The notes beneath the pieces are model-generated. The model saw only the letters and a list, made by a program, of their open reading frames with translations, was not told where the DNA came from and did no database searches. Below are positions 24,840 to 64,000 of a stretch of DNA of 64,000 nt, piece after piece. Location: the NCBI GenBank assembly GCA_026418175.1, contig JAOABX010000008.1, positions 1-64,000 on the forward strand. The letters run 5' to 3'. The position numbers and the translations under genes are program-made. The DNA comes from Flavobacteriales bacterium. GTDB lineage: Bacteria; Bacteroidota; Bacteroidia; CAIKAF01. Each line of letters starts with the position of its first letter. The stretch's first letter is position 1.

Positions 24840-26006
24840 ATGGATACAAAATACGAGAAAAGAGGAGTTTCAGCCGATAAATCAGAAGTGCATCAGGCTA
24901 TAAAAAATTTGGATAAAGGGATTTTTCCAAATGCCTTTTGCAAAATCTTGCCGGATATTGTAGCTAATGATCCGGACTATTGCAACATTATGCATGCAGA
25001 TACAGCCGGTACCAAAACCTCGCTAGCATACATTTATTGGCGAGAAACGGGAGATAATAGTGTTTGGAAAGGAATTATTCAAGATTCCATTGTAATGAAC
25101 CTCGATGATATGGCATGTGCAGGAATTACCAATCATATCATTCTTTCAAGCACAATTGGTAGAAATAAAAATAAAATTCCAGGCGAAGTTTTAATACATT
25201 TAATTGAAGGAACACGGTATTTTATTCAAAAAATGGAAGCGCATGGAATTAGCCTCACGTTAGCAGGAGGTGAAACCGCTGATGTTGGAGACATTGTTCG
25301 AACGCTCGATGTAGGTTTTACAGCATTTGCACGTATCCCACGAAGTGAAGTGCTAGATATTCAGATACAACCTGGAGATGTAATTGTGGGATTTGCTTCC
25401 TTCGGACAAGCAGTGTATGAAGATGAGTACAACGGAGGCATGGGAAGTAATGGACTTACTTCTGCCCGCCACGATGTTTTTTCGCATGAATATTTTACAA
25501 AATATCCTGAAAGTTTTGACCCTGAAGTAGATGAATCGTTGGTGTATGCAGGTAATTTAAAATTAACTGACATTGAGCCAGAAACCGGAATTACTTATGG
25601 CAAATTGGTACTTTCTCCCACTCGAACATATCTACCACTCATTCACCAGCTTCTGCAAAAATACCGGAGCCATATTCATGGAATTATTCATTGCACCGGA
25701 GGAGCTCAAACGAAAGTAATGAAGTTTGTGAATAATATACACGTGATAAAAGATAACTTGTTTCCTATTCCTCCGCTTTTTAAAACGATTATGGAACAGG
25801 CCAATACAGAACCCCGTGAATTATACAAAGTATTTAATATGGGCCATCGGCTTGAGGTTTATACTTCTGCCGATGTTGCTTCAGCCATGATAAAATTGGC
25901 CGCAACGTTTGGTATAGATGCTCAGGTAATAGGCCGATGCGAAGCTTCTGATAAAAAGAAACTAACCATTCAGTCTGAATTAGGTGAATTTGTTTACGAA
26001 GATTAA
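24840..26006 (+). CDS. purM: Phosphoribosylformylglycinamidine cyclo-ligase
   Basis: ATP-dependent closure of the imidazole ring in purine synthesis (FGAM to AIR). The 388-residue product shows the PurM/AIR synthase fold: [17 protein letters not shown] at the N-terminus, [29 protein letters not shown] and [14 protein letters not shown]. It is somewhat longer than the E. coli enzyme (345), as in other Bacteroidota. The ATG lies 14 bases after the preceding terminator and no promoter element is evident. The stop TAATG shares a base with prfA, so the two are coupled. Confidence 0.93.
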
Positions 26007-27091
26007 TGATGAACGATATGCTGGAAAAATTGGAAATGATTTACAAACGATGGGAAGATTTGGCTGAACGTCTTTCTGACCCAGAGCTAATCGCCAACGT
26101 AAAAGAATTTGTAAAGGTCAATAAAGAATACAAAGACCTTCAGCCCATTGTTGATGCATATAAAAAATACAAAACCATTTGCGCAAACATTGAATCTGCC
26201 AAACAAGTTCTGGAAACCGAAAAAGACGAAGAATTTAGAAGTTTAGCCAAAATGGAACTTGACGAATTATTGCCTGCTAAAGAAAAAATGGAAGAAGAAA
26301 TACGAATCTTGCTCATTCCAAAAGACCCGCAGGATAGTAAGAATGCCATCTTAGAAATTCGTGCCGGTACGGGAGGTGACGAGGCTAGTATTTTTGCCGG
26401 CGATTTATTGCGAATGTATTTAAAATATGCTGAAAAAAAAGGATGGAAAACCAATATACTTTCTGAAAGTGAAGGAACAGTGGGTGGATACAAAGAAGTG
26501 GTAGTAGAAATTGAGGGGCAGGATGTATATGGAACCCTGAAATTTGAAAGTGGGGTACACCGGGTACAACGCGTGCCTGATACCGAAGCCAGTGGAAGAG
26601 TCCATACCAGTGCAGCCACTGTGGCGGTATTGCCCGAAGCCGACGAAGTGGATTTTGAATTGAAAGAATCGGATGTAAAAATGGATACAGCCCGCAGTGG
26701 TGGAGCCGGTGGTCAGAATGTAAATAAAGTGGAAACAAAGGTAATTCTTACCCACATACCCACCGGAACTGTGGTGATGTGCCAAACAGAGCGTACCCAG
26801 CTTAAAAATCGTGAAAAAGCAATGAATATGTTGCGAACCAAACTCTATGAGGAAGAAGTTCGTAAACAAGAGGAAGCCATTGCCAGAAAGCGTAAAACAT
26901 TGGTTAGTACCGGTGACCGCAGTGCAAAAATTAGAACTTACAATTATCCGCAAGGCCGTGTTACTGACCACCGTATCGGATTAACCGTGTATAATTTACA
27001 CGATGTGATGAATGGCGATCTGCAAGAGTTTATTGATGCCTTACAGTTTGCAGAAAATGCTGAAAAATTGAAAGAAGGAGCTACTGTTTAG
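26006..27091 (+). CDS. prfA: Peptide chain release factor 1
   Basis: Class I release factor that reads UAA and UAG and triggers peptide release. The 361-residue protein has the catalytic GGQ loop ([11 protein letters not shown]) and the RF1-type PxT codon-reading motif, here PDT in [12 protein letters not shown], instead of the SPF of RF2. Full length, no frameshift. It overlaps purM by one base and pyrF follows after 18 bases. A second ATG three bases in (26009) is equally possible as the start. No hemK/prmC is beside it. Confidence 0.96.
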
Positions 27092-27109: not shown

Positions 27110-27913
27110 ATGAATAAGCAACAACTTATAGCAACCATTCGGCAACGAAAAAGTTTTCTTTGTGTAGGGTTGGATAGCGATATTCAAAAAATACCTTCTT
27201 TTTTATTGCAAACAGAAGACCCAGTGTTTGAATTTAATCGGCGTATTATTGATGCTACCCGTGATTATTGCGTAGCCTATAAACTCAATACAGCTTTTTA
27301 CGAATCGTTGGGAGCTGATGGTTGGCGCATTATGGATAAAACTTTTCATTATATAGGCAAATCACATTTTACCATTGCCGACGCCAAACGGGGCGATATT
27401 GGGAATACTTGTGATATGTATGCACGGGCTTTTTTTGAGCAGATGCAATGCAATGCAATTACACTATCTCCTTATATGGGGCGTGATTCAGTAGAATCTT
27501 TTTTGAAATATCCCGAAAAATTTTCAATTGTGTTGGGTTTGACATCCAATCCAAGTGCAAAGGATTTTCAATACCTGCTGTTGCAAGATGATAAAATGTT
27601 GTATAAGCATATTATTCAAACAGCAGCTACTTGGGGAACATCAGATAATATGATGTTTGTAGTTGGTGCAACCCGGGCAGAGTGGTTAAGAGAAATTCGG
27701 GCTATTACTCCAAATCATTTTCTGTTGGTACCGGGAGTTGGAGCACAGGGTGGTTCGCTGGAAGAAGTGGTAAAGTATGGGATGAACGAGGAAGTAGGAT
27801 TGCTTGTTAATTCCAGCCGGGCAATTATTTATGCATCTTCAGACAATGATTTTGACACAAGAGCAGCAGAAGAGGCTGCCAAGTTGCAGCAGGAAATGAT
27901 GCAATGGATATAA
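27110..27913 (+). CDS. pyrF: Orotidine 5'-phosphate decarboxylase
   Basis: Last step of UMP synthesis. The 267-residue enzyme belongs to the longer type 2 family. The catalytic D-x-K-x-x-D lies in IADAKRGDIGNT, and the substrate-binding segments CVGLDSD, ITLSPYMGRDS and VPGVGAQGG are present. It is probably the last gene of purM-prfA-pyrF. After the stop comes a GC-rich inverted-repeat element, not a simple terminator. Confidence 0.94.
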   Translation: MNKQQLIATIRQRKSFLCVGLDSDIQKIPSFLLQTEDPVFEFNRRIIDATRDYCVAYKLNTAFYESLGADGWRIMDKTFHYIGKSHFTIADAKRGDIGNTCDMYARAFFEQMQCNAITLSPYMGRDSVESFLKYPEKFSIVLGLTSNPSAKDFQYLLLQDDKMLYKHIIQTAATWGTSDNMMFVVGATRAEWLREIRAITPNHFLLVPGVGAQGGSLEEVVKYGMNEEVGLLVNSSRAIIYASSDNDFDTRAAEEAAKLQQEMMQWI

Positions 27914-27946
27914 TTATCTTCTACTTTTATTAGAACTGAATCATAG

Positions 27947-28257
27947 ATGATGCTGCTAAAGCGGCTGTCCGTTACAAGTACTCAGGCCAGCCACAGGTTG
28001 CTAAGTGGGCAGTCAGTATCTTCCTGCCGTCAGCTCTGCTGCCCACAGCATCATGGGCTTAGTCTTTGGGAACTTTTCACTTTCATCCGTAGCAGAAAAA
28101 AATATACAAAGCATTGAGGCAGCGGGTGAAGCGGTATGTAGCATAGGGTGCAAATTAGCTGCACTTAGGCGAGCAGGCGACTGGCAATAAGCCCGCACAG
28201 CCTTAGTGCAGCTTGTTTGCAAATAAGCTACATAGGAGCGGAACACGCGGTTGCCTC
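27947..28257. repeat. GC-rich structured element of unknown type
   Basis: About 310 bases between the convergent ends of pyrF and a minus-strand gene. They are clearly richer in G and C than the surroundings and consist of nested inverted repeats: ATGATGCTG (27947-27955) with CAGCATCAT (28046-28054); GTGGGCAG (from about 28006) with CTGCCCAC; and a long imperfect hairpin of about 33 bases per arm (28135-28168 with 28203-28234), extended by GAGGCAGC (28116-28123) with GTTGCCTC (28250-28257). Open frames cross it on both strands, but none has a plausible product. It may be a dispersed repeat, a MITE-like element or a structured RNA. I do not recognise it. Confidence 0.55.
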
Positions 28258-28300
28258 CCACAAATAATTAAATACACAGACAACTAATGTGGGGATAATT

Positions 28301-28864
28301 TTAGTTGCTCTTAATATTAATAGTTTTGTTTAACAAGCGGATTAATTTGTCTGTTTCTTCATCTGATAACTGTAATCCAAACCGGTATTCATCTTTCTTT
28401 TCGCCAAATGCAATGCAGCCTCCAGTTACTACCCAAAAAGAGTTGTAGAAGGCCGCATTGATGCTGCCCGGTTTTTCGTCAACTTTTCGAAATGGATTTT
28501 TTCCTTTGGCAACAAAATGATGAGGTTTACCGGCTTTACCATGAATATCCCTTCGAATCATGAACTTGTTATTGTTAATGTATATTACTTCCGTACCATA
28601 TTTTCTAAAGTAATAAGCATAAGCAATGCGATAGGCAAAATACGCCCAGAAAAACAAATAAATTACCATGAATAATTTTTCGTCGCTGCTGTATCCAGGA
28701 AAAAAAAGCTGGGAAATAATGATGATACCTGCCGTGAACCATAACAACAGCCAAATTTGAAGAAGCCGAATTTTTTTTTTGTCTTTGGGTGACGTAGCTC
28801 GGATATAAACTGTTAAATCATCGTCAGTTCGCTTAAATGCAATACGGTCGCTAAGATGTTCCAT
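28301..28864 (-). CDS. Hypothetical membrane protein
   Basis: 187 residues. Two adjacent hydrophobic segments (about 36-54, LLLWFTAGIIIISQLFF, and 63-85) form a hairpin, with soluble ends on both sides. The C-terminal half (about 90-180) is charged and looks beta-rich, ending in LSDEETDKLIRLLNK; it may be a PH-like domain, but this is a guess. It starts four bases after the stop of the subtilisin-like protease gene, so it is probably the second gene of that transcript. I recognise no family. Confidence 0.7.
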   Translation of the reverse strand: MEHLSDRIAFKRTDDDLTVYIRATSPKDKKKIRLLQIWLLLWFTAGIIIISQLFFPGYSSDEKLFMVIYLFFWAYFAYRIAYAYYFRKYGTEVIYINNNKFMIRRDIHGKAGKPHHFVAKGKNPFRKVDEKPGSINAAFYNSFWVVTGGCIAFGEKKDEYRFGLQLSDEETDKLIRLLNKTINIKSN

Positions 28865-44256: not shown

Positions 44257-44302
44257 GTTTTTATTTTTTTACAAAATAAACAAAAATGATGGGAATAATC
44301 TG

Positions 44303-60173: not shown

Positions 60174-60211
60174 ACTAAAATTCTTTTTCCGAATAAATCT
60201 GTTAAAAGTGT

Positions 60212-63781: not shown

Positions 63782-64000
63782 TACAATATCTTTTCACAAA
63801 ATAGTGAATAAAGTAATATATTAAAAGTGCTTGTTCTATAAGAGGAAGAAAAACACATTCAACTACCAGTTTATTGGGAAATATTTTTTTGTATTTGTTT
63901 TGTTATACTAATTGCGTTACATCATAGACTTTGTACTTAAAAGTAGCGAACTATCACCATAACTAAGAAATCTGTAATTGTTTTGCAGGGCTTCATGGTA
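63782..64000. other. AT-rich end region with regulatory-looking motifs
   Basis: No coding sequence is supported in the last 219 bases. They contain the inverted repeat TTCAC/GTGAA (63793-63808) upstream of the minus-strand gene and a fourth copy of ACTTAAAAGT (63935-63944), close to TAGACTTTG (63925-63933), a possible promoter pointing out of the window to the right. Confidence 0.45.

Follow-up and report, generated by a model that had tools for sequence, protein, structure and literature searches.

A GC-rich hairpin block downstream of pyrF in a Flavobacteriales genome is probably an old and decayed copy of a modular mobile element

The window, a stretch of 64,000 nt of Flavobacteriales DNA that was analysed as a whole, carries at positions 27947-28257 a GC-rich block between two convergent genes, as a preliminary description of this DNA had stated. 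In the following, G000 denotes the genome to which the window belongs and G001 that of a sister species in the same genus; A and B are the two hairpin modules of the block, TIR stands for terminal inverted repeat, and Flavo-1 is the Rfam family RF01705. The features of the locus are:

27110-27913, plus strand: pyrF (orotidine 5'-phosphate decarboxylase), the left neighbour (PF00215, E 1.1e-24)
27913-27933, plus strand: possible remnant of a left terminal repeat (local alignment p 0.34, no better than chance)
27951-28095, minus strand (the reading strand of Flavo-1): module A, an imperfect hairpin (nhmmer and blastn against 80 distinct full copies outside G000; architecture; covariation)
28096-28115, no strand: AT-rich spacer (A-run) between modules A and B (sequence and position)
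28116-28258, plus strand: module B, long form, with the outer frame GAGGCAGCGGGTGAAGCGG ... GCGGAACACGCGGTTGCCTC enclosing an apical hairpin
28149-28221, plus strand: apical hairpin of module B, whose 22-nt arms (28149-28170 and 28200-28221) are 86% complementary according to a repeat search
28284-28299, minus strand: possible remnant of a right terminal repeat, CTAATGTGGGGATAAT (weak; local alignment p 0.023)
28301-28864, minus strand: ORF of 187 aa, the convergent right neighbour, without Pfam match; the same neighbour is present in G001

The GC content of the block is 0.511, as compared with 0.373 for the whole window, and lies in the top 0.1% among 311-nt stretches. The preliminary description was right about the enrichment and went too far in calling the block richer in G and C than everything around it: the stretch 26500-26724, located more than 1 kb upstream within the ORF 26006-27091, reaches 51-53% in 150-nt windows and is the only one in the neighbourhood that is as GC-rich. 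The minimum free energy of the block is −121.5, whereas 160 sampled stretches of the window averaged −66.7, the most stable of them having −107.4. In a shuffling test the fold had a z score of −3.3 on the plus strand and of −3.6 on the minus strand, and none of 100 dinucleotide shuffles attained the native stability on either strand. Instead of the at least three hairpins that had been proposed, the predicted fold contains two large ones (about 27953-28094 and about 28116-28257); arms of about 33 bases are obtained only if bulges are allowed, the longest ungapped arm having 22 nt at 86%.

That the block might be a dispersed repeat was borne out, since G000 contains some five copies of A and three of B, and the congener dozens. 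In G000 a second B (C9:5049-5202) is 88-89% identical to that of the window (89% over 146 nt), and a search with a sister copy as query retrieved additional A copies at C9:5481-5608, C26:6527-6691 and C79:113035-113162 and a partial B at C27:20141-20229; C80 contains a degraded A copy. Module B of the window is 85-86% identical to two sister copies (L009 and L012). Full A copies number three in G000 and, in the pooled loci, 80 distinct ones outside G000, one of which (L116) is from another MAG. A search of G001 yielded 184 candidates, and all 40 that were scored were matches. The element is rare in its own genome and very abundant in the sister species; in both (massively in G001) the modules are dispersed in intergenic regions, singly or as A...B pairs. 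No match at a comparable level was found in two other members of the genus, G002 having one weak match of 30 nt and G003 one of 23 nt, and plasmid and phage collections searched with the element gave no match. A pattern scan of named genomes found, among the matches listed, Bacteroidota judging by the names (Algicola sp. being ambiguous); most of these matches are from 'uncultured Flavobacteriales bacterium R1_Bin_METABAT__303_1', which from its matching copies would be the species of G001. The copy L116 is of the sister type and was found in a differently labelled MAG (CALJNV01, labelled Bacteroidales) from the same study as the sister; it possibly reflects horizontal transfer or a binning error.

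A typical unit in G001 begins with CCCAAAATTGTCATTAG, which is followed after about 12-30 nt by A, an optional middle part, B in its short or long form and, after a further 20-30 nt or so, the inverted end CTAATGACAATTTTGGG. The optional middle is composed of tandem TTTGAAGATGAG and a GTCATTGCGAG...CAATGACG repeat; in L023, L027, L038 and L141 of G001 the tandem TTTGAAGATGAG and this second palindromic repeat lie between A and B. With up to two mismatches the TIR motif was found 128 times in G001 as against twice for a reversed control pattern. Of 74 testable copies, 36 have a left TIR no more than 80 nt from A, as compared with 0 of 62 background stretches; for a right TIR within 600 nt of A the counts are 35 of 45 copies and 1 of 28 background stretches, and for a B that starts within 600 nt after A they are 27 of 45 and 0 of 28. 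Both inverted ends CCCAAAATTGTCATTAG were found at 21 of 45 testable sister A copies. The three matches of the TIR motif in G000 are not at any A copy. Since roughly one in two testable A copies from the sister has no left TIR within 80 nt, and since subtype A2, to which the window copy belongs, has one in just one of five copies, another route of spreading is possible.

The 5-bp flanks of 31 TIR-TIR intervals, which are from sister-type elements, agree at 64.5% of positions, as compared with 55.5% when the right flanks were shuffled among elements (p 0.002), and exact 5-mer duplications occur in six of the 31 intervals, where 1.5 are expected. No duplication signal was found in these intervals at flank lengths of 3, 4 and 6 to 9. 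The confinement of the signal to k = 5 indicates a 5-bp AT-rich target duplication that is partly decayed.

In G000 a unit of 264 bp (C6:54576-54839; L079) has perfect TIRs CCCAAAATTGTCATTAG, an exact TTAAT duplication and an unrelated interior without A or B. An identical end at a contig edge (C20:30290-30361; L083) suggests a multi-copy IS1380-type unit that is absent from the assembly. In G005, which belongs to another genus of the same family, identical ends bracket elements of about 389 bp and about 803 bp. The longer of the two harbors a decayed transposase, one of whose three pieces matches IS1380 (NF033539, E 5.2e-12; PF13701, E 1.3e-9), the remaining two being without transposase match. 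At a contig edge of G001 an IS1380-like C-terminus runs directly into the variant end CTAATGCATAATTTGGG, which likewise closes some composite units. A search of G000 (80 contigs, one of which ends in the repeat) for a PF13701/IS1380 transposase gave no match.

Two sites of the window are empty when compared with the sister:

44286-44302, no strand: empty site, 17 nt in the window, where the insert of the sister is about 397 nt long and carries A and a short B (L190:596-992)
60186-60197, no strand: empty site, 12 nt in the window, where the sister has an insert of 269 nt in which A is the only module (L166:4542-4810)

The first is in a gap between co-directional ORFs (boundaries 44256 and 44303), the second between divergent ORFs (boundaries 60134 and 60208). 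The contig alignment revealed two further empty sites, stretches with A in the sister being located past positions 63812 and 40511 of the window, which has none there. The pyrF site, on the other hand, is occupied in both species: the window has subtype A2 and a long B there, and the sister has subtype A1 together with an IS1380-like piece and a short B, in a gap that measures about 930 nt. The occurrence of differing module subtypes at the same site can be read to indicate that the insertion took place before the two species diverged and was followed by decay and by exchange of modules with other copies; the exchange is deduced from this one locus, where the orthologous sister copy differs in its A subtype and has a short B. 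The shared occupancy could also stem from two independent insertions.

In our view 27947-28262 is probably what decay has left of an old copy of a mobile element that is modular, non-coding and non-autonomous and comprises modules A and B. The mobile non-coding element considered in the preliminary description is supported by the TIRs and 5-bp duplications in the sister and by the window sites that are empty relative to it. An IS1380-type DDE transposase would move the TIR-bounded units in trans, the hairpin modules would travel within them as cargo or passengers, apical stems would be exchanged between copies, and A-only copies may have taken a second route. Today the element at pyrF is most likely inert and at most a structured block between convergent genes. 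With IS1380 transposons and MITEs it has in common, in the sister, the inverted ends CCCAAAATTGTCATTAG and the AT-rich 5-bp duplications, the ends being shared with the decayed IS1380-type element of G005. It differs from IS1380 MITEs in that its interior consists of paired structured hairpin modules and further repeats rather than of a shortened transposase gene, and in that the copy in the window has no demonstrable ends (for p values see the features listed above). A literature search for IS1380-derived MITEs in Bacteroidetes found no papers.

Module A has a counterpart in Rfam. When module A of the sister copy L037 was scanned alone, its minus strand aligned with all 76 positions of RF01705 at 21.8 bits, the best Rfam match, which is below the Flavo-1 gathering score of 42 bits; the window region gave only chance-level matches to Rfam and no match to Flavo-1 up to E 5. 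In an Rfam scan of eight loci with the A-box pattern, seven had a Flavo-1 match that coincides with the box but lies on the opposite strand and stays under the gathering score, and the eighth, the sister-type copy L116, gave no Flavo-1 match. Module B was also considered as Flavo-1 and rejected, a long B (L016) having 40 Rfam matches up to E 10, none of them to RF01705.

In the Flavo-1 orientation the core of A reads G-N-A / G-U / G-N-A facing G-N-A / A-C / G-N-A and thus contains two 3x3 GNA/GNA internal loops that are 2 bp apart beneath a variable apical stem; at the N positions three or four different bases are found. The strict pattern fits 79 of 83 A copies. Among the four misfits is the copy in the window, a decayed A2 in which one of the four GNA triplets is gone. 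Half of 28 canonical Flavo-1 loci fit the strict version and the other 14 do not; the 2-bp spacer in those that fit is GT/AC in 10 and AC/GT, GC/GC, AT/AT and GT/GC in one each. Across the A copies covariation is strong: 18 of 34 consensus pairs show double changes versus 7.6 in shuffles (123 cells versus 20), the shuffles ignoring the relatedness of the copies. Judged by the core that they share, module A is related to Flavo-1, so that the earlier proposal of an unusual structured RNA was half right in pointing to what proved to be a relative of a candidate RNA. The two differ in that the apical stem of A is far longer and in that A is part of a composite mobile unit with B. A core that resembles the apical hairpin of B (CTAAGGCGAGGAGGCG...CAGCCGTAG) is enclosed by another, Flavo-1-like outer frame in L062 and L065 of G001, which gives the impression that outer frames and apical stems can be swapped.

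REP, BIME and REPIN sequences are, like the modules described here, dispersed, intergenic, imperfect palindromes of modular build that sometimes form inverted pairs, and loops of the GNA type are stable in single-stranded DNA. A possible, if tentative, alternative is that the hairpin modules are themselves mobile as single-stranded DNA via a hairpin-recognising enzyme and that the IS1380 units hitchhike. It would fit that A is found alone without TIRs (in the L166 insert and in most A2 copies), that the mismatched GNA loops are conserved with their N positions free, and that Flavo-1 is itself dispersed, RF01705 matches being present in 75 of 198 relatives (in 47 above the cut-off), several with at least 22 copies, while no ends of the above kind were visible by eye in 28 canonical loci. 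The modules here are about 145 nt long, however, as compared with 20-40 nt for the RAYT-mobilised REP/BIME/REPIN sequences, and a search for a Y1 transposase (PF01797; RAYT protein query) found none in G000, G001 and G002.

Nor does a general link to RAYT emerge among the relatives. The co-occurrence of RAYT and Flavo-1 is not significant (31 genomes with both, p 0.12), RAYT is present in just 10 of 26 genomes with at least five Flavo-1 matches, and the covariance model detected Flavo-1 at 1 of 20 RAYT loci taken from 30 (L333-L362), the others of which were inspected solely with a regular expression that is positive in 15 of 30 Flavo-1 loci. At 27 Y1 loci, isolated single A-box words were seen in L243, L248 and L255, never a box pair as in A, and RAYT was rejected as mobiliser. 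A RAYT partner is thus not supported, with one suggestive exception: in G073 a canonical Flavo-1 copy of 64.2 bits is located at the end of a RAYT-like gene (C88; L294:1978-2618) that has no Pfam match at 0.001 and has relatives in 68 of 198 genomes, a single case met while pairs of Flavo-1 copies were inspected. A transposon between paired copies (L293-L296) was not apparent there, the genes being ordinary-looking besides the RAYT-like gene and an IS200-like one. Movement of TIR-bounded units by an IS1380-type transposase is still the reading that we prefer for the element.

It is unlikely that the block serves as a bidirectional terminator or mRNA-end stabiliser common to pyrF and the 187-aa ORF. 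The gene ends at the pyrF site are convergent in both species and the fold is very stable on both strands, as one would expect of such a function, but the large hairpins have no T-run directly after them, as an intrinsic terminator would, and the only terminator-like site inside the block is weak (28041-28058, 5 pairs; two were found in the region versus 0.6 expected). Moreover, members of the family are also located in divergent and co-directional gaps.

Less likely still is a functional structured RNA of the Flavo-1 kind, either an sRNA or a cis element, that is kept for its RNA fold. Flavo-1 is classed in Rfam as a small RNA gene without known function, and where Weinberg et al. (2010; PMC2864571) deal with the family, which was originally described as a candidate RNA, it is given as a probable RNA that is probably not cis-regulatory. 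The strong covariation of the A copies agrees with this. Flavo-1 is multi-copy, however, and has no obvious strand bias: the 28 canonical loci, from five genomes, show no uniform orientation or context (convergent in 8 cases, sense in 7, antisense in 6, divergent in 5, within an ORF in 1 and unplaced in 1, counts that rest on crude ORF-based gene calls), and the part of a transcriptome study that concerns Flavo-1 (PMC9723704) reports hits that are indistinctly sense or antisense, many of them outside transcribed regions, and leaves their placement unexplained. The presence of the module varies between the sister species, and the window copy no longer resembles Flavo-1 detectably; a genome scan with RF01705 gave no match in G000, G001 and 14 control genomes. 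A decayed protein-coding gene, finally, to which an 82-aa ORF inside the element (minus strand, 28013-28261) could point, has next to no probability, that ORF having no match in Pfam to a known gene and the variation within the family consisting of compensatory stem changes and indels.

A Flavo-1-related module that is present or absent depending on the sister species, target duplications around the units in which it is carried, dispersal in many copies and the absence of a strand bias together suggest that the Flavo-1 family is mobile DNA. More speculatively, Flavo-1 and its relatives could be phylum-wide mobile DNA hairpins rather than RNA, in which the constant GNA/GNA core, with its N positions variable, would be the recognition structure for a single-stranded-DNA enzyme and the apical hairpin an exchangeable cargo; in this genus A...B pairs would in addition have been captured into IS1380-type units, which multiplied to at least dozens of copies. 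With the present findings the unexplained Flavo-1 family becomes testable; if it is mobile DNA, the annotation changes across Bacteroidota genomes. The element also offers a system in which recombination among hairpin modules, IS ends and cargo stems can be studied.

In several Flavobacterium species (L148, L117, L122, L136, L157, L170, L178 and L185) the A-box is located directly 3' of what is apparently one gene. The DNA upstream is near-identical at these loci and encodes the C-terminus ...TSVIDNL, which indicates that some A-box copies are kept at one position.
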